This document shows positions 7,280-28,846 of a stretch of 64,000 bases of DNA, piece after piece. The notes beneath the pieces were generated by a model, which made no database searches, had not been told where the DNA came from, and saw only the letters and a program-made list of their open reading frames with translations. The stretch's first letter is position 1. Each line of letters opens with the position of its first letter. Both the position numbers and the translations under genes were made by a program. Origin of the DNA: Zanthoxylum bungeanum. Lineage: Eukaryota; Streptophyta; Magnoliopsida; Sapindales; Rutaceae. The DNA is taken from positions 186,001 through 250,000 of the forward strand of contig SKCR01018431.1 of assembly GCA_019454045.1 (NCBI GenBank). Direction: 5' to 3'.

Positions 7280-8195
7280 TGACCGGCGTAAACACACACG
7301 TATAACGCAAGCGCACTTATCGTTCAAGCAGTATAAAAATATCGATCCCACGAGGACTTAATATCTAAACTATTAATTTTATAAGGTCAAATGATTACTA
7401 GTATCTAACAGGTTGTTTGATTGATTTGAAATGGTGACGAATCTAAATTTAAAAACAAGTAAATAAAATTGTTCGAAAGTAAGTTTTAAGAAAATTCAAT
7501 ATTAAAAACTATCAAGGGTTGTGAATCTTTCCAATATTATTTAAAGATGAAGTGGTTATCTTATAGTTGGGTAATATATTGATTTATTAACCTAGAATAC
7601 TAAATTATATGAAAGCCTCTGTCGATGGTCAGACACAAATACCCAGTTTAACCAAATTGAACCATATGTCTATGTCAACCAAATTATCTGGATTCATTAA
7701 GATCAAGTTCCAATTATGGATACCCCCGTCCGACAGGTATATGTCTATCCTGTAAGGAAATCTATTAAAAGGTTATCTATCCTCAAGGAAGATCGTGGGC
7801 TATTGATTCTAAGGTCTCAAACATAAAATCCCCATGTCTAGTTCATTTTAAGTTTACCTAATCAATTTTATTAGTGGCTAGTTAATAAAAAACATTAAGA
7901 TTAAGACTCAATAAATAAATCTTTATATTACCCAAACTATAATCTAACCCTTATAAACTGGTGATATTGAAATTCATCACAACCCTAGATAACTAATTTA
8001 GTTACAACACATAACTAGGGCTAGTAAAAACTTAAAAGTAAAAGCCATAAAGTAAAAATGTGGAAAAGTAAAAGCGGTAAAGTAAATACTGAAAAGTAAA
8101 TTACAATAAAATAAAATGCTAAGGTAAAAGGAATTACTTTTACTATTTACTATTTTAGATATCTCCCATAAAATAATATATAAACTTATGATAAC

Positions 8196-8400
8196 ATTAC
8201 CAACCAGCCATATAGGCGGTAACCTGATTAATTCAAATTAAGTCCGACCAGCCATAAAGGCGGTATGATTTGTCCATGAACCTGCCATATAGGCGGTAAG
8301 AAAATTTAATTGCCAACCAGCCATATAGATGGTATCCTTGATTAGTCAGGTTTAAATCAGTTTAAAATGAATTACCAACCGACCAATATGGCGGTATCCT
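8196..8400 (-). repeat. LTR minisatellite of CCATATAGGCGGTA-type units
   Basis: Five units of the type ACCAGCCATATAGGCGGTA occur about 35-60 bp apart. Equivalent arrays occur in every Athila-like LTR of the window (13908-14126, 21708-21914, 27718-27926, 32416-32585, 37148-37316), with unit sequences that vary between elements. Confidence 0.85.
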
Positions 8401-8682
8401 TTTTAAGTCAAATTTTAAATAGTGAATATATTATTTTTAAGGGAGATTAATCTAAATAGCAATAGTAAGAGAATTATCTTTCACCATAGCAGAGAGAAGT
8501 TACCTCCTCATGGTTGAATAGTAAACACTGTAAAAATAAAGAAAGTAAATTACTATTATTACAAAAAGTAATTGAAATTTAATTACAAAACTTAAATTAA
8601 AAGAAACTAGAGAGAGAAACTCCATATTTACATCAAAGAAATGAGAGAGAATGGTACAATTGAAACTGAAATCTCGAGCTCA

Positions 8683-8690
8683 ATTTATAG
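8683..8690 (-). promoter_or_regulatory. Element E LTR TATA box (3' LTR copy)
   Basis: CTATAAAT on the minus strand lies downstream of the G-box cluster and a GC-rich palindrome. The equivalent box in the 5' LTR is at 28205-28212. Confidence 0.55.
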
Positions 8691-8817
8691 ACATCGGTAG
8701 GCCATGGGCGTCGCGACGCCAAAGCCTTTGGCGTCCCGACGCGCGAACAGTTGATTTGGTCCACACGTTTTGACTTTGACTGTTGACGCGGATTTCATCG
8801 GCCCAATATGAATTCGA

Positions 8818-8991
8818 CACGTGGCACGCAGTAGATTCGGTTCAATGAGAAGATGACACATGGCAGAATATGATTCGCCGATGATTCGGTCCAATGAGAA
8901 GATGACACGTGTCACGCGGTGTGTCGGCACCATAGGCTTGTGACACGTGTCCCGGCGTATGTTAATGAATCCTCTGTGATGGTGACACGTG
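8818..8991 (-). promoter_or_regulatory. G-box cluster in E U3 (3' LTR copy)
   Basis: CACGTG occurs at 8818, 8906, 8944 and 8986, with a mutated CACATG at 8857. They lie within GACACGTGGC or GACACGTGTC contexts about 130-300 bp upstream of the TATA box. CACGTG cores bind bZIP and bHLH factors (established), so hormone, stress or light control is a reasonable inference. Confidence 0.65.
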
Positions 8992-9297
8992 GCATGGCGC
9001 ACGTTAGCAAAGTCAAAATTCTAAAATTCTGACCCGTTGACCCAGCGCACGTTAGCAGCTTTGGTGCATGTTAGGCGTCGCGATGCCAAGGTCTTGCGCG
9101 TCGTGACGCGCCCAAATTACCAAAATGCCTTTTTTCCAATTTTCACTGTTTTGGTCCAAATCACCTCCAGAATGTCCTGAAACTTTATTTATCTTCAAAA
9201 TAACACAAAACACATCAAAATATTCACAAAACACAAGAAATTATATAAAATATTAGGTTAAATGAGTGTGAAATAATGATAGATTTACCACTCATCA

Positions 9298-9310
9298 CAC
9301 CCCCAAACCT
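9298..9310 (-). other. Element E polypurine tract
   Basis: On the minus strand this reads TTAGGTTTGGGGGTG up to the LTR start TGATGAG. It is the same tract as in D (20742-20756). Confidence 0.85.
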
Positions 9311-10603: not shown

Positions 10604-10740
10604 GTTAGCTGAAATTCTACACGAAAAGTTAAAGGTTAAGATCGAGATTAACACGACACCTATTACCACAATCGTCTCGGACCAATTTATCTTTGAAATG
10701 ATAGGGTCAACTTGTGGTTTATAGGCTAAGAGTTGTTCTA

Positions 10741-11280
10741 TTAGATCTGGAGCAGTTCTGGCAGTAAAGAGGGGTTCTTTAAAGGTTTTGGCACGAACCT
10801 ATTTCTCCGGGCATCATCAAGAAACACACAAGGAAAATCATAAAATTCATCAACGTTGTACAGCCTAATTGGTTTCTGGTGTATGTTCAGGTTCGCCCAA
10901 GATAGCACAATAAAAAATCCCTCCAATGTACCCAAGCCACCTGGCAAAGCAATAAAAGCATCAGCACGGTTAATCATTTCTACCAGTCGTTCAGACATAC
11001 CTGGTACGATCAGTTCCTCTCCGTTTGATGGTTCAATAAGAGTTGCCTCTGCCAAGGGTTTTGGGATGATTCCCAAAATGTGACTGCCTCCTTCCTGTAC
11101 AGCCTTTGAAATGATCCCCATAAGTCCAAGATTGCCTCCGCCATATATTAAGTGCATATTCCTTGCAGCTAAGACTCGGCCTAATTCTTGTGTTGCTTCT
11201 ATGTATTGTGGTTTAGTACCAACACTACTACCGCAAAACACACAAATGTTTTCAACTCGTCTTCTTGAAGTGGCTTCCAT
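10741..11280 (-). CDS. LOG-like: Captured LOG-family cytokinin riboside phosphoribohydrolase (E copy)
   Basis: The 179-residue product is a LONELY GUY family protein. Such enzymes cleave ribose-5-phosphate from cytokinin nucleotides, releasing active free bases in the cytosol (established). Visible motifs are CVFCGSSVG near residue 13, YGGGNLGLMG near 46, and IALPGGLGTLEG near 111. The family signature is PGGxGTxxE; here the final catalytic Glu is Gly, so activity is doubtful. The conserved Arg upstream (MSERLVEM) is kept. The last ~13 residues are out of frame relative to the D copy, which points to a one-base loss near 10775. The frame is intronless, whereas plant LOG genes usually have several introns, so capture from mRNA is likely. 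It sits between ORF X and the 3' UTR of E. Confidence 0.88.
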   Translation of the reverse strand: MEATSRRRVENICVFCGSSVGTKPQYIEATQELGRVLAARNMHLIYGGGNLGLMGIISKAVQEGGSHILGIIPKPLAEATLIEPSNGEELIVPGMSERLVEMINRADAFIALPGGLGTLEGFFIVLSWANLNIHQKPIRLYNVDEFYDFPCVFLDDARRNRFVPKPLKNPSLLPELLQI

Positions 11281-11529: not shown

Positions 11530-12079
11530 CTATGCGTCAGGGACAAGCTTCCCATCCAATTTTCTTATAAATTAGCAAACAGGGTCTTTTTGAGTCAGAT
11601 TCCCGAGACTTAACAATTGTCTTTCCTTTTGGAATAGTGCATATAACATGCGAATTTCATGATACACACATCCACTGGGATGCGTCTCAAGAGTTTTAGA
11701 TATGTCATCCAAAGACTCCTTACTCAAGCCATCCCTAATGAAATTAATCTTATCTTCGCGGTTATCAGACACCATTCCTAAGAACGACAACGAGTATTAC
11801 AAAACATACGAGCACATTTATAATTAACAAACACACATTCTTTTGGCTCTTCTCTTTTTAGCATATGCTCTTTCCTAAACCATGCAGATGTGAAATAAAA
11901 GAGTCAGAAGGCTCACCTACCAATCGAACCCGTGCTTCAATTAACCAACGAATGTCAGTAGGAATACCTTTGATCATCAGTAATCTCATCCGTTCCAAGC
12001 GAGCTTTGTAGACTTTCATCAGAGATTTTTGAGGGAGAGAAGGAAATTGCTTGCGAAGATTTGCGAGAGCTTCTTCCAT
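11530..12079 (-). pseudogene. ORF X, unrecognised cassette protein (E copy, broken)
   Basis: The start is MEEALANLRKQF at 12079. The frame runs about 73 codons to a stop after HGLGKSIC, then recovers in another frame (11790-11572) with SLGMVSDNREDKI. The ancestral frame probably ended near 11530. Its first 65 residues match the D copy at 57 positions. A Cys-rich segment (CARMFCNTRC, beginning of the motif mutated) lies in the broken middle part. I do not recognise the family. It lies directly upstream of LOG in the same element and orientation. Confidence 0.6.
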
Positions 12080-12180: not shown

Positions 12181-12216
12181 GTTTAAAGTCGTCAGCTAGA
12201 CTTTATTTCTCGATCG

Positions 12217-12319
12217 TTAGGCTGGATCTGAAAGTGTGACACTTTCTTTTTGTCGCTCAAATGATTCTCCCTAGTAGTGCTTAACACGCTTGTTTTTAAC
12301 CTTGAAAGTTTTGTTGGAG
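12217..12319 (-). pseudogene. Element E integrase C-terminal tail, distal part
   Basis: This encodes the last ~34 residues of the integrase tail (KTFKVKNKRVKHY, then a TAG stop where D has Trp, then ERQKESVTLSDPA). It is cut from its proximal part (24139-24624) by S. The stop and the insertion make it non-functional. Confidence 0.8.
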
Positions 12320-12324
12320 TCAGG

Positions 12325-12967
12325 TGTTGACATTATGTCCCATAGCGTCACTGTTTGTAAATGATATTGTATTATTGTACAAAATTAACTATGTGATAAA
12401 TGAAATAGCCTTTTGCCGTTTTGTAATATTATTTACTTTGATTATAAATGGCGAAAGTCCGCGATTAATACCGGATTGAGATGATATGAGCCAGTATCAA
12501 TCCTAAGGTTAATCATTAATATCCCTAGTCGGAGTGTATCGAGATTAACATCCTGATGGAAGGCTACACCATCGATAATGCGGATAGACTAGTATTGCCT
12601 TGTCCACGTTGTGATGGGCACAACGGCATAGTTCTCATATATTTAAGTATTGGATACTTATGCAAGTGCAATAGAGGTTGTGTTTTACCAATGGTACGGA
12701 AAATAGCTTCGCTCTGGATAGACCCCGCGGAATCCCATTGGTAGTATGTCGTGCGTGTCTATGGGAGGCCGCATCAAGGGTAGGTGTATATGGTCTAACC
12801 TGAGACTTACATCGCTAGTACTTGCGACAATCGGTAAACTTTGTTTTGGTGGTTGGGGACCTTAACCGGTTCTGTTGTACCACCTCTTCTGGGTTTATCG
12901 AGAATCGTAGTGTACTGGATGTGATGTCGAGATGGAAGTATCACTTCAGACATATGGAGGTGATGAT
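12325..12967 (+). repeat. S solo LTR, 5' segment
   Basis: This is the first 643 bp of the solo LTR, ending at the ATGAT duplicated on insertion of D. Short frames here (for example 12556-12744) are not genes. Confidence 0.9.
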
Positions 12968-13586
12968 TGATGAGCGGAAAATATCAATATTTACCGCCCC
13001 TTTTACTTAATATTTTGTTTAGTTTCTCGGGTTTGATGAACGTTTTGATGTGTTTTAGTTTATTTTGCAGATAAAATAATATCGGGTCTTAATGAAATCA
13101 TTTAGGACGAAATGTGGATCAAATAAGGGCAATTATTGGACTTGATATATTAATTTTGAAGATTGGAAATTTGAAAGGGCGTTTTGACGAAGTGCAGTTT
13201 TGGAAATTCCAGTTTTGTGCATCTGTCGTATTTTGGGCATAACTCTTTACTCAGATATCGGATTGAGCTGATTCAAGTTCCAGATTAAAGAAGACTCAAA
13301 GATCTACAACTTTGAAAGAGAAAATATTTTCGAATTCTGATGATTTCATGACCGAATTGATGAACCATCCAGAAGTGTGTGGAGTGTAATTATTAAAAGT
13401 CATTATCAATCATTTTCAAAGCAAAATATTAATTAATTAATAATTAATAAAAATTATCAAATCAACACCAAACAAGATAAGCAATTAATGGAGCAATTAT
13501 GGATTTGGTGGAGTAATTAGTGGAGAAATTAATAATGGATTTGGTGGAGAATTTGATGGATGATTTGATGTTGGCAAATTTTTGCC

Positions 13587-13594
13587 TATAAATA
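13587..13594 (+). promoter_or_regulatory. Element D LTR TATA box
   Basis: TATAAATA follows TTTTTGCC, about 620 bp into the LTR. The copy in the 3' LTR is at 21378-21385, and element C has the same TTTGCCTATAAATA context. Confidence 0.6.
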
Positions 13595-13907
13595 CCAAGC
13601 CATTTCATTTGTAAAATTCATACTTTCTTCCTTGAAATTCTTAATGAATAAATAAGAAGATTGTATCTAGTTTGTTTATTTTTAGTTTTCAGTAATTAAT
13701 TTTCAGTTTCGCACTTTCTTTTATTTACTTTTCAGTTTTTACTTTCCGCAATTTACTTTTACTCACAATACTTTTCTTTCTTTAATTTTTCAGTTTTTAC
13801 TTTTCAGTAATGAGGAGGTAATTTCCCAAGCTAGGTGAAAGGTAATTCTTTTACTATTACTATTTAGATTAATCTCCCTTAAATAATATATTCACTATTT
13901 AAAATAC

Positions 13908-14126
13908 TGATTAATAAAGGATACCGCTATATTGGTCGGTTGGCAATTCAATTTAATCTGGTTTAAACCTGACTAATCAAGGATACCGCCAGATTGGTCG
14001 GTTGGTAAATTTATTTTGTACCGCCTTTATGGCTGGATTATGGACAAATATTACCGCCTATATGGCTGGTTGGACTTAATTTGACTTAATCAGGATACCG
14101 CCAGATTGGTCGGTTGGTAAAATAAT
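13908..14126 (+). repeat. Minisatellite in D 5' LTR
   Basis: Units such as GGATACCGCCAGATTGGTCG followed by GTTGG recur five times, alternating with ACCGCC-TATATGGCTGGTTGG forms. The same array is at 21708-21914 in the 3' LTR. Confidence 0.85.
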
Positions 14127-15039
14127 ATCACAAGTTATATATTATTTTATGGGAGATATCTAAATTAGTAGTAGTAAAAGTAATTCCTTTTACCTAGCTT
14201 TTATTTTATTGTAATTTACTTTTCAGCTTTTACTTTACCGCAATTACTTTCAAGCATTTTCATTTTATGTCTTTTACTTTTAAGTTTTATTAGCCCTAGT
14301 TATGTGTGGTAACTAAATTAGTTATCTGGGGTTGTGATGAAATCCAATATCACCGTTTTATAAGGGTTAGATTATAGCTTGGGTAATATAAAGATTTATT
14401 TATTGTGTCTTAAACTTAATGCTTTTTCATTAACTGGCCATTAATAAAATTGATCTGGTAAATCTAAAATGAACTAGACATAGGGATTTTAGGTTTCAGC
14501 CTTAGACTCAATAGCCCACGATCTTCCTTGAGGATAGATAACCCTTTAATAGATTTCCTTACAGGATAGGAATATACCTGTTGGGCGGGGGTAGCCATAA
14601 TTGGAACTTAAACTTAATGAATCCAGATAATTTGGTTGACATAGACATATGGTTCAATTGGGTTAAACTGGGTATTTGTGTCTGACCATCGACAGAGGCT
14701 TACACATAATTTAGTGTTCCAGGTTAATAAATCAATATATTACCCAACTTTAAGATAACCACTTCATCTTTAAAATGATATTGGAAGAAATCACACCCTA
14801 GATAGTTTTTAATATTGAATTTTCTTAAAACCTATTTTCGACAATTTTATTTACTTGCTTTTAAATTTAGAATCGTCACCATTTCAAATCAATCAATCAA
14901 CTTGTTAGATATTAGTAATCATTTGACCTCATAAAATTAATAGTTTAGATATTAAGTCCTCGTGGGATCGATATTTTTATACTACTTGAACGATACGTGC
15001 GCTTGCGTTATACGTGTGTGTTTACGCCGGTCAAGTTTT

Positions 15040-15057
15040 TGGCGCCGTTGCCGGGGA
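15040..15057 (+). other. Element D primer-binding site (tRNA-Asp type)
   Basis: TGGCGCCGTTGCCGGGGA lies six bases after the LTR end. This is the classic Athila primer site (family knowledge). Confidence 0.92.
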
Positions 15058-15164
15058 CTTATTTATCTTTCACTATTAATTTAGGGGTTAGATACGTTAC
15101 TTGTATCTAATTTCTTTTTACTTATTGTTTTTGTTTTCTTGTGTTTCAGGTTCTCAGAAACTAC

Positions 15165-16789
15165 ATGAGACGAACCAGAAGCTTTGAACTCCGATCGCTT
15201 GACCCAGAAATTGAAAGAACCATCAGACAGTTGAGAAGGGAAGGCGAGAAGGCCAAGAAGCTTTAGTCAACATGGAACCTGAACCTTTGAACGTTGCACC
15301 ACCAATTCCCATTCGAGACAGAACCATTCCGGTGATTGACAGACTCATTTCTTGCATTGTACTTCCTCCCTTACCAGCAAATGCATGTGACATCAAAACA
15401 TGCATTCAGATGATTCAGCACTCAGTTCAGTTTGGGGGGAATGCAACTGAAGATCCGAATTCCCACATCAGCAACTTCCTGGAAGTTTGCGGCACTTTTA
15501 ATTACAACCGAGAAGCGGAAGAAGCAATGAGACTGCGAGTTTTTCCATACTCCTTGAAGGACAGAGCTAAAGCTTGGCTACATTCACTACCACCAGGTTC
15601 TATCACAACTTGGAACACTTTAGCCACCAAATTTCTTGCAAAGTACTTTCCACCAGCCAGAACCGGAAAGCTGAGGAATGACATCACATCCTTTGTACAA
15701 CAAGATTCAGAATCCCTCTGCGAAGCTTGGGAAAGGTAAAAGATTTGCTCCGGAAATGTCCTCACCATGAGATTCCAAAATGGCTTCAAGTTCAAACATT
15801 CTATAATGGACTTTCTGGAATAATGAGAACCACAATCGATGCTGCTGCTGGAGGAGCCTTGATGGCAAAAGGAGAAGATCAAGCCTGGGACCTAATCGAA
15901 GAAATGGCCAACAACAATTCCTTGTGGCCAACAGAAAGGAGCATGATCCAAAGAATTGCAGGAATTTATGAAGTTGGAGCAAACACAGCAGTGAATACCA
16001 GGCTGGATCAGATATGCAAATGTCTAGAAACACTTAGCACGCAAGTTGTGAACATCACTGGATCCACAAGTTCACCATATGGAGGAGCACCAGAACCTAA
16101 ACAACATGAAGAAACGGTGAATTATGTCAACAATTTCAACAGACAGGGGAACAACTCCATATTCCAACACCTACAACCCAGGGTGGAGGAATCATCCTAA
16201 TTTATCATGGAGTAACAATTCAGGCCAACAGCAGAACTATCCACCACCTGAATTTCAGCAACAGAACAAAGGCCAGGAGCATGAAAAAGAACCAGAAATG
16301 AAAGAATGGTTTGCAGAGATGTTTAAAAAGCAAGAAGCAAAATACGATGCTATGTTTCAATCCCAAGCAACATTAATTCAAAGTCAATATGCTTCTATTA
16401 AAGCACTGGAGAATCAAATGGGACAACTGGCAAATGCTCAGAGTTACAGACCGCCAGGTACCCTTCCTAGCAACACAGAGCCAAATCCAAGGAACATGGA
16501 GAAGGAGCAATGTCATGCCATCATGTTAAAGAGCGGTACTGAAATCAACAAAGATGTTGGAGTCAATTCAACTGCTGAGGAAGTTCCAAAAGAAACAAAG
16601 CAACAAATGGAGGAAAAAGAAGCAAAGGAAAAAGAACAGATCACTCCACCTCCACCTTTTCCCAACGTCTTCAGAAGAACAAATTGGACAAGCAATTTTC
16701 CCGGTTCCTGGAAATATTCAAAAAGCTGCATATCAACATTCCATTTGCAGAAGCGTTGGAACAAATGCCCACCTATGCCAAATTCATGA
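15165..16789 (+). pseudogene. gag: Element D gag, frameshifted
   Basis: The ATG at 15165 (MRRTRSFELR) follows a TTTCAG tract. A retrotransposon gag domain is clear at 15400-15740 (NFLEVCGTFNYNREAEEAMR, then a KAWLHSLPPGS-type block). Downstream are a central region (15727-16200) and a Gln-rich part with GWRNHPNLSWSNNSGQQQNY and a SQYASIKALENQMGQLANAQ block (16124-16789). These typify Athila-type capsid proteins, which pack element RNA into particles. The frame changes at least three times (near 15220, 15735 and 16160), apparently from single-base indels relative to E. Some may be assembly errors. Confidence 0.88.
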
Positions 16790-17214
16790 AAGATATTCTT
16801 TCACGAAAACGGAGATTGGGAGATTACGAGACAGTAGCATTAACAGAAGAATGCAGTGCCATCATTCAGAGGAAACTTCCCCCAAAGTTGAAAGATCCTG
16901 GCAGTTTCACTGTTCCTTGCGTCATAGGAGAACATAACTTTGGTAAGGCTTTATGTGATTTAGGTGCTAGTGTTAACTTGATGCCTTTTTCTATTTTCAG
17001 GAAATTACAGATTGGAGAAACAATGCCAACTTCAGTCTCACTGCAACTTGCTGATAGAACGCTCGTATTTCCAAGAGGTGTAGTTGAGGATGTGCTGGTC
17101 AAGGTTGACAAATTCATTTTCCCCAGCATTTTATTGTCCTTGATATGGAGGAAGACGCAGACGTGCCAATCATCCTTGGAGACCATTCTTGGCTACAGGT
17201 CGAACCATTATTGA
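16684..17214 (+). pseudogene. pro: Element D aspartic protease
   Basis: The frame holds the retropepsin active-site block KALCDLGASVNLMPFS at about 16942-16990, followed by a LADRTLVFPRGVVEDVLVKV segment typical of Athila proteases, which cut the polyprotein. After FIFP the frame shifts relative to E and loses the expected [10 protein letters not shown] block, which is still readable in E. The upstream frame overlaps the end of gag in another phase. Confidence 0.85.
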
Positions 17215-17229
17215 TGTACAAAAAGGAGA

Positions 17230-17829
17230 ACTAACCATGAGGGTACAGGACCAAGAAGTAACATTCAATGTTTTCAAGGCCATGAATTTCCCAGATGATG
17301 AAAAGAAGGAGGAATGTTTCAAACTGATGTGATACACAGTACCATTCAGAACTCTGATGAAAGACAAAGTTCTACTGACAAACTTAAAACATGTCAATTG
17401 CCTGTGGAGCCTAAAGATAAAACATCTTTTGCACTGAAAGAGCCAATTCTTGCTCTACAAGCAACAGAAGAGAAAAAGTTCCACCAGCTCAACGAATTGG
17501 AGGAATTTCACAATCAGCCTTTTGAAGATGCCAAATTGTACAAAGAAAAAGGCAAGAAAAGACATGATGAGAAGTTAGTGCGCATACAACTGGAACCAGG
17601 GCAGAAGGTACTGTTAAACAAATCAAGGGTGAAATTCTTCCCATGGAAGCCAAAATCACGGTGGTCAGGTCCATTTGTGATCACCAAAGTTTTACCAAAT
17701 AGAGCCGTTGAGATACATGATCCTGACGCTAACAAAACTTTCAAGGTTAAAAACAAGCGTGTCAAGCACTACTGGGGAAAATCATTTGAGCGACAAAAAG
17801 AAAGTGTTACACTTTCAGATCCAGCTTAA
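17230..17829 (+). pseudogene. Protease linker fused to integrase C-terminal tail (D)
   Basis: The protease-to-RT linker (TMRVQDQEVTFNVFKAM) is followed within about 100 codons by the integrase tail, with LYKEKGKKRHDEKL, LEPGQKVLLNKSRVKFFPW and SRWSGPFVITKVLP blocks. RT, RNase H and the integrase zinc finger and catalytic core are missing. The frame from 17314 is open to the stop at 17827. In D a one-base loss near 17325 separates the linker from the tail; in E both are in one frame. The tail helps target chromatin in some Ty3 elements, but alone it cannot integrate DNA. Confidence 0.85.
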
Positions 17830-17860
17830 CGTTCGAGAAGCCAAGTCTGGCTGACGACTT

Positions 17861-17893
17861 TAAACTTAGCGCTAGCAGGGAGGCAACCCATGC
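17861..17893 (+). other. Conserved GCGCTAGCAGGGAGGCAACC motif (D)
   Basis: TTAGCGCTAGCAGGGAGGCA is followed by ACCCATGC, 35 bp after the integrase tail stop. Its counterparts in C and E fix the left border of the cargo cassette. A conserved untranslated block at this place is a known feature of Athila-type elements. Confidence 0.75.
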
Positions 17894-17935
17894 AATTTGT
17901 GTATATATTATGATTTGGTGTGTTTTATTTTTGTG

Positions 17936-17951
17936 TGTTTAATTTTTGCAG
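17936..17951 (+). promoter_or_regulatory. Candidate 3' splice site before ORF X (D)
   Basis: A T-rich tract ending TTTAATTTTTGCAG precedes ORF X by 16 bases. E has TTTAGTTTTTGCAG at the same place. Use as an acceptor for a spliced downstream RNA is an inference. Confidence 0.45.
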
Positions 17952-17967
17952 GATTAGTCATTTCAAA

Positions 17968-18387
17968 ATGGAAGCTGCTCTCGCAAATCTTCGCAAGCAA
18001 TTTCCTTCTCTCCCTCAAAAATCTCTGATGAAAGTTTACAAAGCTCGCTTGGAACGGATGAGGTTACTGACAATTCACGGTGTTCCTAATGATATTCGTT
18101 GGGTAATTGAAGCACGAGTCCGATTGGCAGGTGAGTCTTCTGACTCTTTTATTTCACATCTGCCTGGTTTTGGAAGAAGCACCTATTCAAAGAAACGTAG
18201 AGCTAAGCAAATGGGTGTTTGTTACAAATGTGCACGATTTAATTGCAACACTCGTTGTCGTTCTTTAGGAATGGTGTCTGATAATCGCGAAGACAAAATT
18301 AAATTCATTAGGGATGGCTTGAGAAAGGAGTCTTTAGATGATCTATCTTCGACTCTTGAGACGCATCCCAGTGGATATGTTAATTAG
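17968..18387 (+). CDS. ORF X, unrecognised cassette protein (D copy)
   Basis: The product is 139 residues, starting MEAALANLRKQFPSLPQKSL. A basic helical-looking N-terminal part (MKVYKARLERMRLL, then DIRWVIEARVRL) is followed by a basic patch YSKKRRAKQ and a Cys cluster CYKCARFNCNTRC near residues 85-97 (C-x2-C-x4-C-x3-C). The cluster resembles a small zinc-binding motif but is not a standard CCHC knuckle. The end SLGMVSDNREDKIKFIRDGL is shared with E. The stop at 18385 looks secondary: E continues, and the D sequence stays homologous to about 18515. I do not recognise the family. Strong protein conservation between two independently decayed elements argues that it was once constrained. Confidence 0.6.
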   Translation: MEAALANLRKQFPSLPQKSLMKVYKARLERMRLLTIHGVPNDIRWVIEARVRLAGESSDSFISHLPGFGRSTYSKKRRAKQMGVCYKCARFNCNTRCRSLGMVSDNREDKIKFIRDGLRKESLDDLSSTLETHPSGYVN

Positions 18388-18691
18388 CCATTCGCAAATT
18401 ACATACACAATTCCAAAAGGAAAGACAACTGTTAAGTCTCGGGAATCTGACTCAAAAAGACCCTGTTTGCCAATTTATAAGAAAATTGGATGGGAAGCTT
18501 GTCCCTGACGCATAGACGTCAATCAAACCGTTACTTTTTTGTAAATATTATATCTCTTTGTCTTTTCTTAATAATTGTGATTTGTTTTGTTGTTTTCTTT
18601 TAATTTTCTCCGACAGGATCCAGACCTTTTTGACTATCACGATATTAATTCGTTACTAATCGTCCTCTGGAAGATATTTGTGCTGTTATTA

Positions 18692-18705
18692 CTCACCTTT
18701 TTCAG
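18692..18705 (+). promoter_or_regulatory. Candidate 3' splice site before LOG (D)
   Basis: CTCACCTTTTTCAG followed by GTACT lies 68 bases before the LOG start. E has CTCACTCTTTTCAG at the same place. Another acceptor-like CTCCGACAG is at about 18609-18617, mutated in E. Confidence 0.4.
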
Positions 18706-18772
18706 GTACTATAAATTCAGCCCGTCATTGCACTTTTGAAGGCATCCGAGTTGAAAAAGAAATACATAAAAA

Positions 18773-19367
18773 ATGGAAGCCACTTCAAGAAGACGAGTTG
18801 AAAACATCTGCGTGTTTTGCGGTAGTAGTGTTGGTACTAAGCCACAATACATAGAAGCAGCACAGGAATTGGGTCGAGTCTTAGCTGCAAGGAATATGCA
18901 CTTAATATATGGCGGAGGCAATCTCGGACTTATGGGGATCGTTTCAAAGGCTGTACAGGAAGGAGGCAGTCATGTTTTAGGAATCATTCCAAAACCCTTG
19001 GCAGAGGCAAACCTTATTGGATCATCAAACGGAGAGGAACTGATCGTGCCAGGTATGTCTGAACGACTTGGTAGAAATGATTAACCGTGCTGATGCTTTT
19101 ATCGCTTTGCCAGGTGGTTTGGGTACATTGGAGGAAATTTTTATAGTTCTATCTTGGGCGAACCTGAACATACACCAGAAACCGCTTGGATTGCTCAATA
19201 TTGATGGATTTTATGATTTTCTTTGTGTGTTTCTTGATGATGCCCGGAGAAATGGGTTCGTGTCAAAACCTATGAAAGAACTCCTCTTCACTGCCAGAAC
19301 TGCCCCGGATCTAATTGACCAACTCATAGCTATGAACCACAAGTTGACCCTATCATTTCAAAGATAA
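18773..19367 (+). pseudogene. LOG-like: Captured LOG-family cytokinin riboside phosphoribohydrolase (D copy, one frameshift)
   Basis: Two abutting frames (18773-19084 and 19068-19367) make a LOG-length protein of about 198 residues, slightly shorter than common plant LOGs. Motifs in order are CVFCGSSVG, YGGGNLGLMG, GHVLGIIPKPLAE-like SHVLGIIPKPLAE, MSER with the conserved Arg, and an intact PGGLGTLEE, the family's catalytic and phosphate-binding signature. LOG releases free-base cytokinins from their nucleotides (established). One extra T at about 19068 (CGACTTGG here, CGACTGG in E) breaks the frame. It may be real or an assembly error. The gene is intronless and lies where Athila elements normally have an env-like ORF. 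Confidence 0.9.
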
Positions 19368-20741
19368 ATTGGTTCGAAGACAATCGTGGTAAGAAGCGTC
19401 GAATTAATCTGGATCTTAACCTTTAATTTCCTGTAGATTTTCAGCTAACCAGGTACGACTTCTTAACTCTCTATTACTGTTCAAGACATTGGGGACAATG
19501 TCTCATTTAGGTTTGGGGGAAGGAATTAGTTGATAGTACCTTGTTTTTAGTTTGTGTGTTGTTTTTATTTTTAGTCCAAAATTTTTCGAAAAATACAAAA
19601 AAATTGAAAAATTTTCAAAAAATTACAAAAATATTTTGCATTTTTGTGTTTTTATTTTGACTAAAAAAGTGAAATTGGTAAGAGATAGCCGAGTAAGGAG
19701 TTTCCACTCCTGAGACGTATCTCAAACCTATTTCGAAACAAGTTAATTTTTGTTTATTTCATTTTGAATTATTTAATTTGTGAATTCTCCTTAAAACTGA
19801 CTAAAAAGGAATCTTCATATGTTTAGTTAGCAGATATTATCAACATGCATAGTAACATACAGACATGAGCTAACTGAAAGGATTGTAATATTCAGTGCTC
19901 TAGTTTAATTGGAGGAAGCATCTCAAAAAGTGATGGAGTAAAAAAAAAAAAAATAAAAAAATAAAGCATCTAAGATCCGGTTATTAAGTCTGTAAGGGTG
20001 TTTTAACACCTAGTGCCCTAAAACCAACTGGTTTGGGAGTCACTGGCCCAAAGCTCGTTACATGGATCAAGGATGTTGCAAAAATATATATATCTGAAGT
20101 CTGGGTAATTAAGTCCTTAGGGGTGTCTTAACACCTGGTGCCCTAAAGCCAACTGGTTTGGGAGCCACCGACCCAAAGCTCGCTACATAGGCAGAAGATA
20201 TTGTATATAAATAAAAAATAGAAAAAAAAAATCAGAAAAATCAAAAAAAAAAAAAAAAAAAATTTACTCCATTACTATAAAAAGGTGTGAAATCTAATAG
20301 AACCTTAGGACAAAAATATTATTCTCTTATCAATTGCACTTGTGACTGTTGTGGGAAAAAATGAGTTGATTAATATTTTGTTAGCTGTGTATATGGAGAA
20401 TGGTAAAAATAATCGGAGAATTTACTTATTCGGTAATTTAGAATAAAACAAAACAACTAGTAACTTGGAGTAGAAGTTTCACCTGATTAGTCACTAACAT
20501 CTTTATTCTCTTTTCGCTTGTCTTTTTGCTTTTGTGTGCATTAGTTTTACTACCTTTTTACTTTGTAAAATGTTTGTGGGTATCATTGCTGTAAACCCTC
20601 ACGAGACTACAACTCGTCCACTAGGGACACCTAGGGTTTTAAAGCTTGTTGCATATGCTAAATGCAACCGTGATCCCTACGAAAGTGGCTTAGTTTAATT
20701 TTAATTTTATTTTGTTGTTTTGCTCGAGGACTAGCAAAATG
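19368..20741 (+). other. Element D 3' untranslated region
   Basis: There is no credible ORF. It holds CAGCTAACCAGG at 19442 (right border of the cassette), a hairpin at 19485-19502, an internal polypurine-like GGTTTGGGGGA near 19509, A/T-rich tracts, and a two-copy repeat of about 120 bp (19985-20070 and 20108-20190) with CCTAAAACCAACTGGTTTGG-like blocks. Confidence 0.75.
19485..19519 (+). other. Conserved hairpin and internal polypurine-like tract (D)
   Basis: GACATTGGGGACAATGTC is a perfect 7-bp stem with a GGGA loop. It is followed by TCATTTAGGTTTGGGGGA. The purine tract resembles the true one at 20742-20756 but lies about 1.24 kb upstream of the LTR. Confidence 0.85.
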
Positions 20742-20756
20742 TTAGGTTTGGGGGTG
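20742..20756 (+). other. Element D polypurine tract
   Basis: TTAGGTTTGGGGGTG directly precedes the 3' LTR start TGATGAG. It primes plus-strand DNA synthesis (established role). Confidence 0.9.
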
Positions 20757-22828
20757 TGATGAGCGGAAAATATATCAATATTTACCGCCCCTTTTACTTA
20801 ATATTTTGTTTAGTTTCTCGGGTTTGATGAACGTTTTGATGTGTTTTAGTTTATTTTGCAGATAAAATAATATCGGGTCTTAATGAAATCATTTAGGACG
20901 AAATGTGGATCAAATAAGGGCAATTATTGGACTTGATATATTAATTTTGAAGATTGGAAATTTGAAAGGGCGTTTTGACGAAGTGCAGTTTTGGAAATTC
21001 CAGTTTTGTGCATCTGTCGTATTTTGGGCATAACTTTTTACTCAGATATCGGATTGAGCTGATTCAAGTTCCAGATTAAAGAAGACTCAAAGATCTACAA
21101 CTTTGAAAGAGAAAATATTTTCGAATTCTGATGATTTCATGACCGAAATTGATGAACCATCCAGAAGTGTGTGGAGTGTAATTATTAAAAGTCATTATCA
21201 ATCATTTTCAAAGCAAAATATTAATTAATAATAATTAATAAAAATTATCAAATCAACACCAAACAAGATAAGCAATTAATGGAGCAATTATGGATTTGGT
21301 GGAGTAATTAGTGGAGAAATTAATAATGGATTTGGTGGAGAATTTGATGGATGATTTGATGTTGGCAAAATTTTGCCTATAAATACAAGCCATTTCATTT
21401 GTAAAATTCTACTTTCTTCCTTGAAATTCTTAATGAATAAATAAGAATTGTATCTAGTTTGTTTATTTTTAGTTTTCAGTAATTAATTTTCAGTTTCGCA
21501 CTTTCTTTTATTTACTTTTCAGTTTTTACTTTCCGCAATTTACTTTTACTCACAATACTTTTCTTTCTTTAATTTTTCAGTTTTTACTTTTCAGTAATGA
21601 GGAGGTAATTTCCCAAGCTAGGGTGAAAGGTAATTCTTTTACTATTACTATTTAGATTAATCTCCCTTAAAAATAATATATTCACTATTTAAAATACTGA
21701 TTAATAAAGGATACCGCTATATTGGTCGGTTGGCAATTCAATTTAATCTGGTTTAAACCTGACTAATCAAGGATACCGCCAGATTGGTCGGTTGGTAAAT
21801 TTATTTTGGTACCGCCTTTATGGCTGGATTATGGACAAATATTACCGCCTATATGGCTGGTTGGACTTAATTTGACTTAATCAGGATACCGCCAGATTGG
21901 TCGGTTGGTAAAATAATATCACAAGTTTATATATTATTTTATGGGAGATATCTAAATTAGTAGTAGTAAAAGTAATTCCTTTTACCTTAGCTTTTTATTT
22001 TATTGTAATTTACTTTTCAGCTTTTACTTTACCGCAATTACTTTCAAGCATTTTCATTTTATGTCTTTTACTTTTAAGTTTTATTAGCCCTAGTTATGTG
22101 TGGTAACTAAATTAGTTATCTGGGGTTGTGATGAAATCCAATATCACCGTTTTATAAGGGTTAGATTATAGCTTGGGTAATATAAAGATTTATTTATTGT
22201 GTCTTAAACTTAATGCTTTTTCATTAACTGGCCATTAATAAAATTGATCTGGTAAATCTAAAATGAACTAGACATAGGGATTTTAGGTTTCAGCCTTAGA
22301 CTCAATAGCCCACGATCTTCCTTGAGGATAGATAACCCTTTAATAGATTTCCTTACAGGATAGGAATATACCTGTTGGGCGGGGGTAGCCATAATTGGAA
22401 CTTAAACTTAATGAATCCAGATAATTTGGTTGACATAGACATATGGTTCAATTGGGTTAAACTGGGTATTTGTGTCTGACCATCGACAGAGGCTTACACA
22501 TAATTTAGTGTTCCAGGTTAATAAATCAATATATTACCCAACTTTAAGATAACCACTTCATCTTTAAAATGATATTGGAAGAAATCACAACCCTAGATAG
22601 TTTTTAATATTGAATTTTCTTAAAACCTATTTTCGACAATTTTATTTACTTGCTTTTAAATTTAGAATCGTCACCATTTCAAATCAATCAATCAACTTGT
22701 TAGATATTAGTAATCATTTGACCTCATAAAATTAATAGTTTAGATATTAAGTCCTCGTGGGATCGATATTTTTATACTACTTGAACGATACGTGCGCTTG
22801 CGTTATACGTGTGTGTTTACGCCGGTCA
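20757..22828 (+). repeat. Element D 3' LTR
   Basis: The 2072-bp copy is nearly identical to 12968-15033. By eye about fifteen differences are 1-2 base indels, mostly in homopolymers, and there are two or fewer base substitutions. The TATA box is at 21378-21385. Confidence 0.95.
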
Positions 22829-24133
22829 ATGATCACGCAGGACACAGAACTAGTACTCTATAAAAGGTGCAACGTCGGGACAATATGACCAGGTCGGATT
22901 GTCCGATTTAAAGAGACTAGTGCTTGATGTCCGATATATTTGTTGTACGGGGCAACACATTTCCAGCCCCAGGCCTAACATGTGATCGTCCGTACTGGAT
23001 CGATGTACGCAATATACGTAACTACGCTTGATTAGATCTTAATTTCCTATAAGAATATTTCTGGAGAATTGGGTAGGCATGGCGCTTGGCTAGAAGCCAC
23101 CTTGTCTTTGTGAATCGGTAAAAACGTAGTACGAGGTACGTACGTGTTCGGATTATCCGACGACGTAATTTACTGCCAACATATCCGGAGATCTCTGGTG
23201 TCGCTCCCAAGATTTCACAATGATGTATGATTCAAACTCGATTAATCTGGATTAATTACGGAGAGACTTTATCTTGGATAAAGTACTATACATAGAGAGA
23301 GAACGATATTTGGAATTAATCGTAAAATTATTATATTCGATATAATAATCGAAATTCGTTTCGACGCGAAATTAAAATTAGATTTTAATTCGGGCAAACG
23401 AGTTAATTTAGAATTAATTCGTTAGCGACGTAAATAATATTTCGCTAGGCGCAATTATTTATTTAAATTCGATTTAATTACGTCGCGACGTAAGTTCGGT
23501 ATTTCGGAAATATTGAACCCGAACGCGTGAGTGCACGTGGGCCACTTTCATTGGAAACGTGTGGGGCCCACATGACACATGTCATATTATGGATTATTTA
23601 ACTCTAATGCATTGCATTGGAGATAGTGTACAATGCACTCAATGGTTTTGCATGGAATTGAGTGTTTGACACTCTAAGCCATTGCATGATTTGTGTCATA
23701 AGTTTATTATTAATTTAATAAATATTATGGCATAAATATAATTGATTTTTTGTAACAAAAATCATTCAACTCTCCTCTCTCTCACATTGCCGAAAACTAC
23801 ATGCAGTTTTGGGCTCTCCATTTCTTCAATTTTTGTGGCAAGATTTGAAGAAGTTGTGCATTCAAAATCACAACAAAGGCTAGCACCTTCAAGGGATCAT
23901 ACATAGGTGATATGGGAAACTAATCTTGAGCTTGGAAGGATCAAACTCGACTTGGAGTCCTCTTTTCTTCTTGGCCGAGAGCTTCACTGCACAAGGGAGG
24001 AATTTCGCATCATCTTAGCATCCATTTTCAAGTATTGTGAGTATGATTCCGCCATACTTCAATTAATTCATTCATGTATTTATATATTTTGCTTGTTCTT
24101 GTTGATCTTGGGGCTTGGTAATAGAAACCAACA
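22829..24133 (+). repeat. S solo LTR, 3' segment
   Basis: This is the remainder of the solo LTR after D. It includes a region dense in short inverted repeats (about 23340-23530, with ACGTCGCGACGT and AATTAAAATTAGATTTTAATT) and a G-box-like GTGCACGTGG at 23532. The 90-codon frame at 23907-24179 crosses into E and is a chance frame. Confidence 0.9.
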
Positions 24134-24138
24134 TCAGG

Positions 24139-24624
24139 ATCATGTATCTCAACGGCTCTATCTGGTAAAACATTGGTGATCACAAATGGACCTGACCACC
24201 GTGATTTTGCCTTCCATGGGAAGAATTTCACCTTTGATTTGTTTAACAGTACCTTCTGCCCTGGTTCCAGTTGTATGCGCACTAACTTCTCATCATGTCT
24301 TTTCTTGCCCTTTTCTTTGTACAATTTGGCATCCTCAAAAGGATGATTGTGAAATTCCTCTAATTCGTTGAGCTGGTAGATCTTTTTCTCTTTTGTTGCT
24401 TGTAGTGCAAGAATTGGCTCTTTCAGTGCAAAAGACGCTTTATCTTTAGGCTCCACAGGCAATTGACATGTTTTAAGTTTGTTAGTAGAACTTTGCATTG
24501 CATTGGAGTTCTGAATGGTACTGTGTATCACATCAAGTCTGAAACATTCCTCCTTCTTTTCATCAACTGGGAAATTAATGGCCTTGAAAACATTGAATGT
24601 TACTTCTTGGTCCTGTACCCTCAT
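24139..24624 (-). pseudogene. Protease linker and integrase tail, proximal part (E)
   Basis: The frame starts MRVQDQEVTFNVFKAINF at 24624 and passes without a break from the protease-RT linker into the integrase tail (KGKKRHDEKLVRIQLEPGQK, then SRWSGPFVITNVLPDRAVEI). This shows that the deletion of RT, RNase H and integrase core left an open, joined frame. S interrupts it after HDPD; the rest is at 12217-12319. Confidence 0.85.
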
Positions 24625-24639
24625 GGTTAATTCTCATTT

Positions 24640-25329
24640 TTATACATCAATAATGGTTCGACCTGTAGCCAAGAATGGTCTCCCGAGGATGATTGGTACG
24701 TCTGCGTCTTCCTCCATATCAAGGACAATAAAATCTTATGGGAAAATGAATTTGTCAACCTTGACCAGCACATCCTCAACTACGCCTCTTGGAAATACGA
24801 GCGTTCTATCAGCAAGTTGTAGAGAGACTGAAGTGGGCATTGTTTCTCCAATCTGCAGTTTCCTGAAAATAGAAAAAGGCATCAAATTAACATTTGCACC
24901 TAAATCACATAAAGCCTTACCAAAGTTATGTTCTCCTATGACGCAAGGAATGGTGAAACTGTCAGGATCTTTCAAATTCGGGGGAAGTTTCCTCTGAATG
25001 ATGGCGCTGTATTTTTCTGTCAATGCTACTGTCTCGTAATCTCCCAATCTCTGTTTTCGTGACAGAATATCTTTCATGAATTTTACATAGCTGGGCATTG
25101 TTCCAAGGCTTCTGCAAATGGAATGTTGATGTGCAGCTTTTGAACACCTCCAGGAAATGAGCAAACTACTTATCCAGTTTGTTTTTCTGAAGACGCTGAG
25201 GAAAATATGGAGGTGGTGTGGTCTGTTCTTTTTCCTTTGCTTCTTTTTCCTCTGTTTGTTGCCCTGTTTCTTTTGGAACTTCCTCAGCAGTTGTTTTGGC
25301 TCCAACATCTTTGTTGATTTCAGTACCAT
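24640..25329 (-). pseudogene. pro: Element E aspartic protease
   Basis: The frame 25329-24736 carries the active-site block KALCDLGANVNLMPFS and LADRTLVFPRGVVEDVLVKV. A TAA-type stop follows FIFP, after which the same frame still reads [18 protein letters not shown] and RPFLATG, the conserved protease end. It is better preserved here than in D. It overlaps the gag end at about 25166-25329 in another frame. Confidence 0.85.
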
Positions 25330-26644
25330 TTTTTAACATGATGGTATGACATTGCTCATTTCCCATGTTCCTTGGATTTGGCTCTGTGTTGCTAGGAAGA
25401 TTACCTGGTGGTCTGTAACTCTGAGCATTGGCCAGTTGTCCAATTTGATTTTCCAGTGCTTGAATAGAAGCTGATTGGCTCTGAATCACAGCATCGTACT
25501 TTTTTAACTGAGCTAAAACTTCTGCTATTTCTGGTTCATTTGCCTGCTCATGGCCTTTGTTCTGTTGCTGGAATCCAAGTGGTGGATAGTTCTGCTGTTG
25601 GCCTGAATTGTTGCTCCATGCAAAATTAGGATGATTCCTCCACCCTGGGTTGTAGGTGTTGGAATAAGGATTGTTCCCATGTCTGTTGAAATTGTTGACA
25701 AAATTCATCGTTTCTTCAAGTTGGTTCGACTCTGGTGCTCCTCCATCTGGTGAACTTGTGGATCCAGTGGTAAGAGTCTCCATGAATTTGCATATCTGAT
25801 CTAACTTAGCATTGACTGTTGTATTGGCTTTACTTTCATAAATTCCTGCAATTCTTTGGATCATGCTCCTTTCTGTTGGCCACAAGGAATTGTTGTTGGC
25901 CATTTCTTCGATTAGTTCCCAGGCTTGATCTTCTCCTTTCACCATTAAAGCTCCTCCAGCACCAACATCAATTGTGGTTTTCATTATTCCAGAAAGTCCA
26001 TTATAGAATGTTTGGACTTGAAGCCATTTTGGAATCTCATGGTGAGGACATTTCCGGGGCAAATCTTTGTACCTTTCCCAAGCTTCTTAGAGAGTTTCTG
26101 AGTCTTGTTGTACAAAGGATGTGATGTCATTCCTTAGTTTTCCAGTTCTGGCTGGTGGAAAGTACTTTGCAAGAAATTTGGTGGCTAAAGTGTTCCAAGT
26201 TTTGATAGAACCTGCTGGTAGTGAATGTAGCCAAGCTTTAGCTCTGTCCTTCAAGGAATATGGGAAAACACGCAGTCTCATTGCTTCTTCAGCTTCTCGG
26301 TTGTAATTGAAAGTGCCACAAACTTCCAGGAAGTTGCTGATGTGGGCATTAGGATCTTCAGTTGTATTCCCCCCAAACGGAACTGACTGCTGAATCATCT
26401 GAATGCATGTTTTGATGTCACCCGCATTTGCTGGTAAGGGAGGAAGTACAATACAAGAAATGAGTCTGTCAACCACCGGAATGGTTCTGTCTCGAATGGG
26501 AATTTGTGGTGCAACCTTCAAAGGTTCAGGTTCCATGTTGACTAAAGCTTCTTGGCCTTCTCGCCTTTCCTTTCTCAACTGTGTGATGGTACTTTCAATT
26601 TCCTGGTCAAACGGTCAGAGTTCAAAGCTTCTGGTTCGTCTCAT
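25166..26644 (-). pseudogene. gag: Element E gag
   Basis: The ATG at 26644 (MRRTRSFEL) is followed by an in-frame stop. A long frame then begins with RKERREGQEALVNMEPEP (26578), crosses the gag domain (NFLEVCGTFNYNREAEEAMR), and meets a TAA after QQDSETL at about 26087. The same frame reopens from 26062 to 25166. No frameshift is needed, only stop codons, so E preserves the gag frame better than D. Confidence 0.88.
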
Positions 26645-26751
26645 GTAGTTTCTGAGAACCTGAAACACAAGAAAACAAAAACAATAAGTAAAAAGAAAAT
26701 AGATACAAGTAAATGTATCTAACCCTAAACTAATAGTAAAAGATAAATAAG

Positions 26752-26769
26752 TCCCCGGCAACGGCGCCA
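26752..26769 (-). other. Element E primer-binding site (tRNA-Asp type)
   Basis: The minus strand reads TGGCGCCGTTGCCGGGGA, six bases after the end of the 5' LTR. It is identical to that of D and C. Confidence 0.92.
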
Positions 26770-28204
26770 AAAACTTGACCGACGTAAACACACACGTATA
26801 ACGCAAGCGCACGTATCGTTCAAGTAGTATAAAAATATCGATCCCACAAGGACTTAAAATCTAAACTATTAATTTTATGAGGTCAAATGATTACTAGTAT
26901 CTAACATGTTGTTTGATTGATTTGAAATGGTGACGAATCTAAATTTAAAAACAAGTAAATAAAATTGTTCGAAAGTAAGTTTTAAGAAAATTCAATATTA
27001 AAAACTATCAAGGGTTGTGAATCTTTCCAATATTATTTAAAGATGAAGTGGTTATCTTATAGTTGGGTAATATATTGATTTATTAACCTGGAATACTAAA
27101 TTATATGAAAGCCTCTGTCGATGGTCAGACACAAATACCCAGTTTAACCAAATTGAACCATATGTCTATGTCAACCAAATTATCTGGATTCATTAAGATC
27201 AAGTTCCAATTATGGATACCCCCGTCCGACAGGTATATCTATCATATAAGGAAATCTAATAAAGGGTTATCTATCCTCAAGGAAGATCGTGGGCTATTGA
27301 ATCTAAGGTCTCAAACCTAAAATCCCTATGTCTAGTTCATTTTAAGTTTACCTAATCAATTTTATTAGTGGCCAGTTAATAAAAAGCATTAAGATTAAGA
27401 CTCAATAAATAAATCTTTATATTACCCAAACTATAATCTAACCCTTATAAACCGGTGATATTGAAATTCATCACAACCCTAGATAACTAATTTAGTTACA
27501 ACACATAACTAGGGCTAGTAAAAACTTAAAAGTAAAAGCCATAAAGTAAAAATGCGGAAAAGTAAATGCGGTAAAGTAAATACTGAAAAGTAAATGCGGT
27601 AAAGTAAATACTGAAAAGTAAATTACAATAAAATAAAATGCTAAGGTAAAAGGAATTACTTTTACTATTTACTATTTTAGATATCTCCCATAAAATAATA
27701 TATAAACTTATGATAACATTACCAACCAGCCATATAGGCGGTAACCTGATTAATTCAAATTAAATCCGACCAGCCATAAAGGCGGTATGATTTGTCCATG
27801 AACCTACCATATAGGCGGTAAGAAAATTTAATTGCCAACGAGCCATATAGGCGGTATCCTTGATTAGTCAGGTTTAAATCACTTTAAAATGAATTACCAA
27901 CCGACCAATATGGCGGTATACTTTTTAAGTCAAATTTTAAATAGTGAATATATTATTTTTAAGGGAGATTAATCTAAATAGCAATAGTAAGAGAATTATC
28001 TTTCACCATAGCAGAGAGAAGTTACCTCCTCATGGTTGAATAGTAAACACTGTAAAAATAAAGAAAGTAAATTACTATTATTACAAAAAGTAATTAAAAT
28101 TTAATTACAAAACTTAAATTAAAAGAAACTAGAGAGAGAAACTCCCTATTTACATCAAAGAAATGAGAGAGAATGGTACAATTGAAACTGAAATCTCGAG
28201 CTCA

Positions 28205-28212
28205 ATTTATAG
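28205..28212 (-). promoter_or_regulatory. Element E 5' LTR TATA box
   Basis: CTATAAAT on the minus strand is placed as in the other LTR. This is the copy expected to drive transcription of E. Confidence 0.55.
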
Positions 28213-28339
28213 ACATCGGTAGGCCACGGGCGTCGCGACGCCAAAGCCTTTGGCGCCGCGACTCGCGAACAGTTGATTTGGTCCACACGTTTTGACTTTG
28301 ACTGTTGACGCAGATTTCGTCGGCCCAATAAGAATTCGA

Positions 28340-28513
28340 CACGTGGCACGCAGTAGATTCAGTTAAATGAGAAGATGACACGTGGCATAATATGATTCGC
28401 CGATGATTCGGTCCAATGAGAAGATGACACGTGTCACACGGAGTGTCGGCACCATAGGCTTATGACACGTGTCCCGACGCATGTTAGCGGATCCTCTGTG
28501 ATGGTGACACGTG
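28340..28513 (-). promoter_or_regulatory. Five G-boxes in the E 5' LTR
   Basis: CACGTG is found at 28340, 28379, 28428, 28466 and 28508, all inside GACACGTGGC or GACACGTGTC. They lie 130-300 bp upstream of the TATA box. All five are intact here, against four in the 3' LTR. Confidence 0.7.
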
Positions 28514-28846
28514 GCACGGCGCTCGTTAGCAAAGTCAAACTTCTCAAATTCTGACCCGTTGACCCGACGCACGTTAGCAGCTCTGGTGCATGTTAGGCAT
28601 CGCGACGCCAAGGTTTGCGCGTCGTGACGCGCCCAAATTACCAAAATGCCATTTTTCCAATTTTCACTGTTTTGGTCCAAATCACCTCCAGAATGTCCTG
28701 AAACTTTATTTATCTACAAAATAACACAAAACACATCAAAATATTCACAAAACTCAAGAAAATATACAAAATATTAGGTTAAATGAGTGGGAAATAGTGA
28801 TAGATTTACCACTCATCAATAATGTAATGGATGAAGCATCAGACTT

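Follow-up and report, generated by a model that had tools for sequence, protein, structure and literature searches.

According to its abstract, a 2011 study by Steinbauerova et al. (Genetica 139:1543) reportedly found two Athila-like elements with similarity to LOGL4. In the available passages of PMC9289625, a YgdH/LOG domain is noted in Gypsy consensus sequences of Citrus sinensis and C. clementina and, under a laxer filter, in a Populus trichocarpa Gypsy consensus, and the 2011 study of Steinbauerova et al. is cited. The present analysis concerns a 64,000-nucleotide stretch of the Zanthoxylum bungeanum genome (assembly GCA_019454045.1, contig SKCR01018431.1, positions 186,001 to 250,000 of the forward strand), called the window below, and two long terminal repeat (LTR) retrotransposons in it, E on the minus and D on the plus strand, which carry a gene of the LONELY GUY (LOG) cytokinin-activation family. 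Plant enzymes of this family, the cytokinin riboside 5'-monophosphate phosphoribohydrolases, split cytokinin nucleotides and so set the free base loose. With the Citrus and Populus Gypsy elements and the Athila-like LOGL4 elements they share a LOG-family extra open reading frame (ORF) within a Ty3/gypsy element of a related host. An earlier reading of the window, made from its letters alone (the sequence-only reading), had known of no described element of this kind; that claim falls, LOG in Gypsy elements having been published already in the passages of PMC9289625. The LOG domain receives two sentences there, the main text, as far as available, contains no terms for nucleic-acid-binding protein (NABP), carlavirus or nucleic-acid binding, and copy number, constraint, tail, splice sites and a single origin do not appear in these passages.

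The orchid Gypsy elements with an ORF for an AlkB demethylase of N6-methyladenosine (m6A), described in the same parts of PMC9289625, likewise carry an extra enzyme ORF in many consensuses; they differ in enzyme and host, and their activity was shown in vitro, whereas that of the element LOG is predicted. In the part of PMC6317226 available, the survey of extra ORFs applied a filter of at least 250 codons, which would miss both ORFs discussed here, LOG with 217 codons and a NABP-like ORF with 182. The available text of PMC7264820 contains no word beginning with LOG, that of PMC11728184, on sunflower extra ORFs, lacks the word cytokinin, and the literature search returned no paper combining carlavirus, retrotransposon and nucleic acid binding protein, a wider search giving none by title. 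Within the literature searched, LOG in Athila-like elements is already known, and the tail, the NABP-like neighbour, the constraint and the scale seem to be new.

Elements of this family that bear reverse transcriptase (RT), and their non-autonomous derivatives, regularly contain LOG, which is highly amplified and under constraint; it usually lies downstream of an ORF resembling carlavirus NABPs and carries an added tail composed of a basic stretch and LxLxL. In both window copies the gene is intronless, runs in the direction of the element and is flanked by the integrase C-terminal region and the polypurine tract, the same internal place and orientation that the sequence-only reading had given it. 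The LOG ORF of E (10741..11280, minus strand) encodes 179 amino acids and matches PF03641 at 4.8e-29; a frame shift occurs near the C-terminus, and the homology runs on in another frame to 10629. The LOG gene of D (18773..19426, plus strand) is frame-broken: the frame holds up to about codon 99, and another indel follows further on. Searches with the element LOG gave 5.1e-36 against PF03641 and 5e-60 against the structure of Arabidopsis AtLOG3 (At2g37210, PDB code 2a33), and the Lysine_decarbox/SLOG domain and the YGGGxxGLMG and PGGxGTxEE motifs, which define LOG membership, are all present. A place outside the LOG family, named in advance as fatal to the earlier claim, is thus contradicted by the PF03641 match. 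The signature PGGLGTLEE, ascribed earlier to both copies, is kept in D, and E reads PGGLGTLEG; elsewhere it occurs in 20 of 20 open LOG copies and in 15 of the 18 LOG copies from elements chosen by their NABP-like ORF. Family and motifs are common to the element LOG and AtLOG3; in contrast to such plant LOG enzymes, the element LOG has no introns, falls in a clade of its own and bears the basic plus LxLxL tail. The origin of the ORF by chance is ruled out by the profile, the structure-sequence match and the tree. Between E and D, the LOG genes differ with a synonymous divergence (dS) of 0.193 and a nonsynonymous divergence (dN) of 0.060 (ratio 0.31, Fisher p 4e-5). On a second contig (G000:C50663), the first 179 codons of the LOG copy L002 give a protein identical to that of E; this contig may represent the second haplotype or be a duplicate.

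A 35-base LOG pattern, with up to three mismatches allowed, occurs 20,310 times in the 3.96 Gb genome, and a 35-base RT pattern, picked for conservation, occurs 6,574 times; the reversed controls gave 0 in both cases. All 19 of the sampled loci besides L015 contain the LOG pattern, and 10 of these 19 contain the RT pattern. The LOG to RT ratio of about three is rough, since conservation of the two patterns differs, and it agrees with the retention of LOG in many elements without RT. A sample independent of LOG was assembled from 20 elements picked through the NABP-like ORF among 150 scored matches, with the downstream DNA taken; one was lost to a contig end, and the sample leans to elements with a well-kept NABP ORF. 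LOG was in place in all 19 evaluable elements, with at least 90% of its length in 18. These counts (19 of 19 and 20,310) rule out a one-off capture limited to two elements, and they bear out the earlier view that the gene travelled with the element. The ratio dN/dS proposed there as a check came to 0.218 in 18 copies of this sample, which LOG had no part in choosing (mean dS 0.162, mean dN 0.035); it was 0.18 in 20 copies picked by LOG similarity and open frames and 0.189 in eight copies without NABP picked in the same way, both values being biased low by that choice. Frame-shifting indels were present in 14 of the 19 NABP-chosen copies, three of which had stops as well.

A second sample comprised 20 LOG loci, hand-picked from 150 scored matches and covering up to 9.9 kb around LOG. 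Family LTR sequence was found on both sides in 17 of the 20, and RT in 11, one of them (L023) with a partial match. Four loci (L010, L013, L017 and L028) resemble the window copies in keeping gag, protease and the end of integrase while lacking RT, RNase H and the integrase core; L027 contains gag only, and the content of L019 and L020 is ambiguous. L022 and L025 show no gag-pol match of the family; by eye they have a gag-like fragment similar to that of element C, a related element of the window, yet they bear LOG.

Tails were counted in 98 of 120 element-type LOGs (205–260 residues) and 117 of 119 host LOGs. LxLxL lies within the last 12 residues in 79/98 element-type LOGs versus 1/117 host LOGs, and a basic cluster together with LxLxL is found in 78/98 versus 0/117; examples are GKKRRINLDLNL and KKRKLDLTLRL. 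Among the LOG copies of this genome, 17 of 18 have the LxLxL end, and the window copies still spell the tail, which reads GNRCRVNLDLNL in E (10629..10667, minus strand) and GKKRRINLDLNL, a basic stretch plus EAR-like LxLxL, in D (19388..19426, plus strand). EAR motifs have the form LxLxL or DLNxxP, and the LxLxL form recruits TOPLESS. The tail looks like a nuclear signal followed by an EAR/TOPLESS motif and would be a candidate for a nuclear/EAR role.

The phylogeny of element and host LOGs, which the sequence-only reading had also proposed, grouped 44 element-type LOGs as a single clade with 100/92 support and separated them from 33 host LOGs (100/95). The element-type rows were six sequences of this genome and 38 of 120 listed database relatives, thinned by length and redundancy; they include sequences from Xanthoceras (P0065), Diplodiscus (P0060) and Reevesia (P0064, P0097), while Populus and Paulownia proteins were dropped in thinning and near relatives kept instead. 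The host rows were every fourth listed relative of one host LOG, with a lean to LOG5-like proteins, plus Arabidopsis LOG3 and LOG8. The single clade fits one old uptake of LOG by the element lineage. Capture from a host mRNA, suggested earlier from the lack of introns, fits that lack, a host LOG gene of this genome (L030:557-1830) having five exons when spliced by eye; no parent gene was found for it, the element-type clade standing beside all sampled host LOGs. The L030 host LOG is 87% identical to a Citrus clementina protein and 74% to the next best, from Acer; with the Citrus protein it shares a long branch (0.31) among LOG5-like proteins.

Besides what the earlier reading had noted, a second accessory ORF was found between the integrase tail and LOG. 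This NABP-like ORF of 182 codons lies upstream of LOG, at 17968..18512 (plus strand) in D, where it is open to 18387 with the remainder in another frame, and at 11533..12079 (minus strand) in E, where it occupies two frames. Pfam searches matched it to Viral_NABP (PF05515) with 28.9 bits (cut-off 23) and to Carla_C4 (PF01623) with 27.6 bits (cut-off 20.9), the basis on which homology to these carlavirus families is proposed. The ORF scores above both cut-offs, and it differs from carlavirus NABPs in that a part of each profile is covered and the first 37 residues, as seen in P0122, have no Pfam match. At E <= 0.01, 356 database relatives were found, and the best 120 of them (P0122–P0241) include sequences from the eudicots Xanthoceras, Populus, Acer, Rhamnella and Orobanche; at E <= 0.001, 31 of 38 relatives match PF05515 and 30 of 38 match PF01623. 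An RRAK run and four cysteines (85, 88, 93, 97) are invariant or nearly so in the alignment. The dN/dS of the ORF is 0.230 in eight open-frame rows, a choice that biases it low; the out-of-frame L014 was excluded, and L008 and L026 among the rows are one locus. The predicted structure has a predicted local distance difference test (pLDDT) score of 60.7, and the Foldseek search with this low-confidence model gave no match at E <= 0.001, the best viral match being an 'RNA silencing suppressor' of Fig latent virus 1 with a non-significant E of 0.42. Pattern scans of viral contigs with the NABP and LOG proteins gave five and four pattern matches, respectively, and no relative. Carlavirus proteins of this type have a role in silencing suppression.

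Sites resembling splice acceptors precede these ORFs. A first rule asked for a pyrimidine-rich CAG or TAG no more than 110 bases upstream. Such a site precedes LOG in 53 of 54 rows (random windows: 640 of 3000) and gag in all 15 rows examined, and only three of 22 rows have one before NABP. A site like TTTTTGCAG is present before NABP in 22/22 rows versus 49/5000 random windows, by a post hoc rule that was set after inspection of the sequence upstream of NABP. Some loci enter these rows twice (L001/E, L003/L024, L004/L025 and L008/L026), and related copies are non-independent. In D, TTTTTGCAG stands at 17943..17951 before the NABP-like ORF, and the CAG of the site before LOG at 18703..18705, both on the plus strand. 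A single transcript from the 5' LTR promoter might be spliced to three acceptors, yielding separate gag-pol, NABP and LOG mRNAs.

The best explanation of the whole, which we think probable though far from certain, is that an Athila-type lineage acquired LOG in the distant past and has since retained it as a 3' accessory gene of its own; the capture and the constraint are well supported. Since LOG and the NABP-like ORF are apparently under selection, the element probably uses both. The LOG protein would probably be an active cytokinin-activating enzyme acting in the nucleus, and through its EAR-like tail it could be tied to corepressors of the TOPLESS type; it would most likely raise active cytokinin locally, or disturb repression, in the cells expressing it, and transposition that passes to the next generation might thereby be easier in these cells. 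The meristem or germline benefit put forward by the sequence-only reading is speculative. For the NABP-like protein, RNA binding is probable, and the RNA of the element may be protected by it. An enzyme function of the element LOG is likely from its sequence, TOPLESS binding and a benefit to the element are what we infer beyond this, and the accessory proteins might possibly have a role in silencing. A bolder proposal, possible and in our view rather doubtful, is that one lineage joined an RNA-virus-type NABP, of a silencing-suppressor family, to a host LOG made nuclear by a nuclear localisation signal and an EAR/TOPLESS tail, so that hormone level and chromatin repression would be acted on together, and that this two-gene module has been kept across eudicots, with tens of thousands of copies in one genome. 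Most accessory genes of plant retrotransposons have no recognisable function, and here two adjacent ones can be named and are constrained; together they predict that LOG acts on cytokinin nucleotides and binds TOPLESS, that the NABP-like protein binds RNA and that spliced subgenomic messages are made. A single genome here holds a hormone-activating gene at over 20,000 places, which is of importance for annotation too: wherever plants bear such elements, element copies may swell the number of LOG genes counted.

Several observations weigh against the preferred explanation. A clean LOG is encoded by neither E nor D, and the frame is uninterrupted in only five of the 19 evaluable NABP-chosen copies. 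Some LOG copies sit in elements without NABP, and these copies form no single clade (four changes). The clade-base sequences P0065 (Xanthoceras) and P0033 lack the LxLxL end, and the element-type LOGs from outside Zanthoxylum were sampled as proteins. Element C of this window lacks LOG, and nothing in it matches the gag, pol or NABP of the E/D family. Judged by its LTR substitutions D looks young, although the LOG it carries is broken in the assembly; LOG may therefore be dispensable in cis. Such breaks, found in 14 of the 19 evaluable copies, together with the young D and the LOG-less C, would suit a passive passenger that was captured once and amplified with the element without any function for it. 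We regard this as quite improbable; it is already disfavoured by the dN/dS of 0.22 in copies not selected for LOG and by the retention of motif and tail across sequences about 50–60% identical, and the low number of stops against frame-shifting indels (3/19 versus 14/19), with 12 indels in the LTR pair of D, points to assembly errors as the source of a part of the breaks.

The neighbourhood of the conserved arginine, MSERLVEM in the element LOG versus MHQRKAEM in AtLOG3, also tells against a cytokinin-activating enzyme kept by the element, and the changed residues could mean a different use of substrate. This partial alteration near the active site, like the tail present in 78/98 element-type and 0/117 host LOGs, would agree with a non-hormonal role, in which the enzyme fold is a scaffold and the tail recruits TOPLESS and alters silencing or host transcription. 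Such a role is unlikely, in our judgement: PGGLGTLEE, kept in all the open copies (20/20) and in 15/18 of the others, would be unneeded in a mere scaffold, and the EAR function is itself read from a motif alone. It is very improbable, finally, that the LOGs of element type in other plants belong to a host subfamily of their own from which the element acquired LOG recently and repeatedly. In its favour, no parent gene was found, the other species are represented by proteins only and some of these are annotated LOGL10; against it, LOG domains lie within Gypsy consensuses of Citrus and, under the laxer filter, Populus in the available passages of PMC9289625, and NABP relatives also occur in Xanthoceras and Populus. 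The LOG relative P0121 and the NABP relative P0148 are on contigs of equal length (8723), which is suggestive only.

The element that carries the preferred reading, an Athila-type lineage with an accessory LOG, is ordinary in its biology, and it is the cargo that is unusual. One copy with RT has the Pfam domains Retrotrans_gag, RVT_1, RT_RNaseH and rve in sequence, which fits the gag-PR-RT-RNaseH-INT order of Athila, a lineage with extra ORFs on the 3' side. In L015, the one copy whose two pol frames were compared with Pfam for this purpose, neither a chromodomain nor a second (archaeal-type) RNase H was reported; according to the part of PMC6317226 available, absence of these separates Athila from chromoviruses and Tat. 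The Athila ORF-1 domain PF03078 had no Pfam match in the family copy tested, and it is not defining for Athila, because only 16% of Athila elements have it in the same part of PMC6317226. Athila affiliation is likely from these domains.

Within the window, E spans 7280..28818 (minus strand) between target site duplications (TSDs) ATAAT (7275-7279 and 28819-28823), and D spans 12968..22828 (plus strand) between ATGAT (12963-12967 and 22829-22833), which bears out the earlier description of two TSD-bounded elements. A segmental duplication as the origin of the pair, the other case named in advance as fatal, is excluded because E and D have independent TSDs, and the LTR divergences are unequal as well. 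The 3' LTR of E (7280..9297), with the polypurine tract AGGTTTGGGGGTG immediately upstream in element sense, and its 5' LTR (26776..28818) differ by a Kimura two-parameter distance (K2P) of 0.0325; those of D (5' LTR 12968..15033, 3' LTR 20757..22828) differ by a K2P of 0.0024, with five substitutions over 2061 columns and 12 indels. This excess of indels suggests residual assembly indel errors, and a part of the frame breaks in the D LOG may be assembly errors too. The primer binding site TGGCGCCGTTGCCGGGGA, which we take to be of the tRNA-Asp type, begins six bases past the 5' LTR (26752..26769, minus strand, in E; 15040..15057, plus strand, in D). On the minus strand, E contains gag spread over two frames (25166..26614), the protease region (24619..25332) and, adjoining it, the integrase C-terminal region (24028..24633), with its final part at 12220-12324; on the plus strand, D contains a frame-broken gag (15215..16200), the protease region (16579..17242) and the integrase C-terminal region (17302..17829). 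Long stretches of E and D align at about 87–89%. Gag, protease and the integrase end are retained in both, and tblastn with queries from a related copy found no RT, RNase H or integrase core in the window; E and D, lacking these, are non-autonomous derivatives.

Element C (31661..38199, plus strand) is a related LTR element with LTRs at 31661-33463 and 36386-38199 (K2P 0.0325), and it contains the gag-like fragment and the shared 3' region. F, a solo-LTR-like insertion in E without an assigned strand (12325..24133), begins with TG, ends with CA and is flanked by the TSD TCAGG (12320-12324 and 24134-24138); the final part of the E integrase region lies past it. That F interrupts E and that D sits inside F, and so also interrupts E, goes beyond the sequence-only reading; D divides F into parts 12325-12967 and 22834-24133. 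Stretches related to F lie near 45, 53, 56 and 64 kb of the window.

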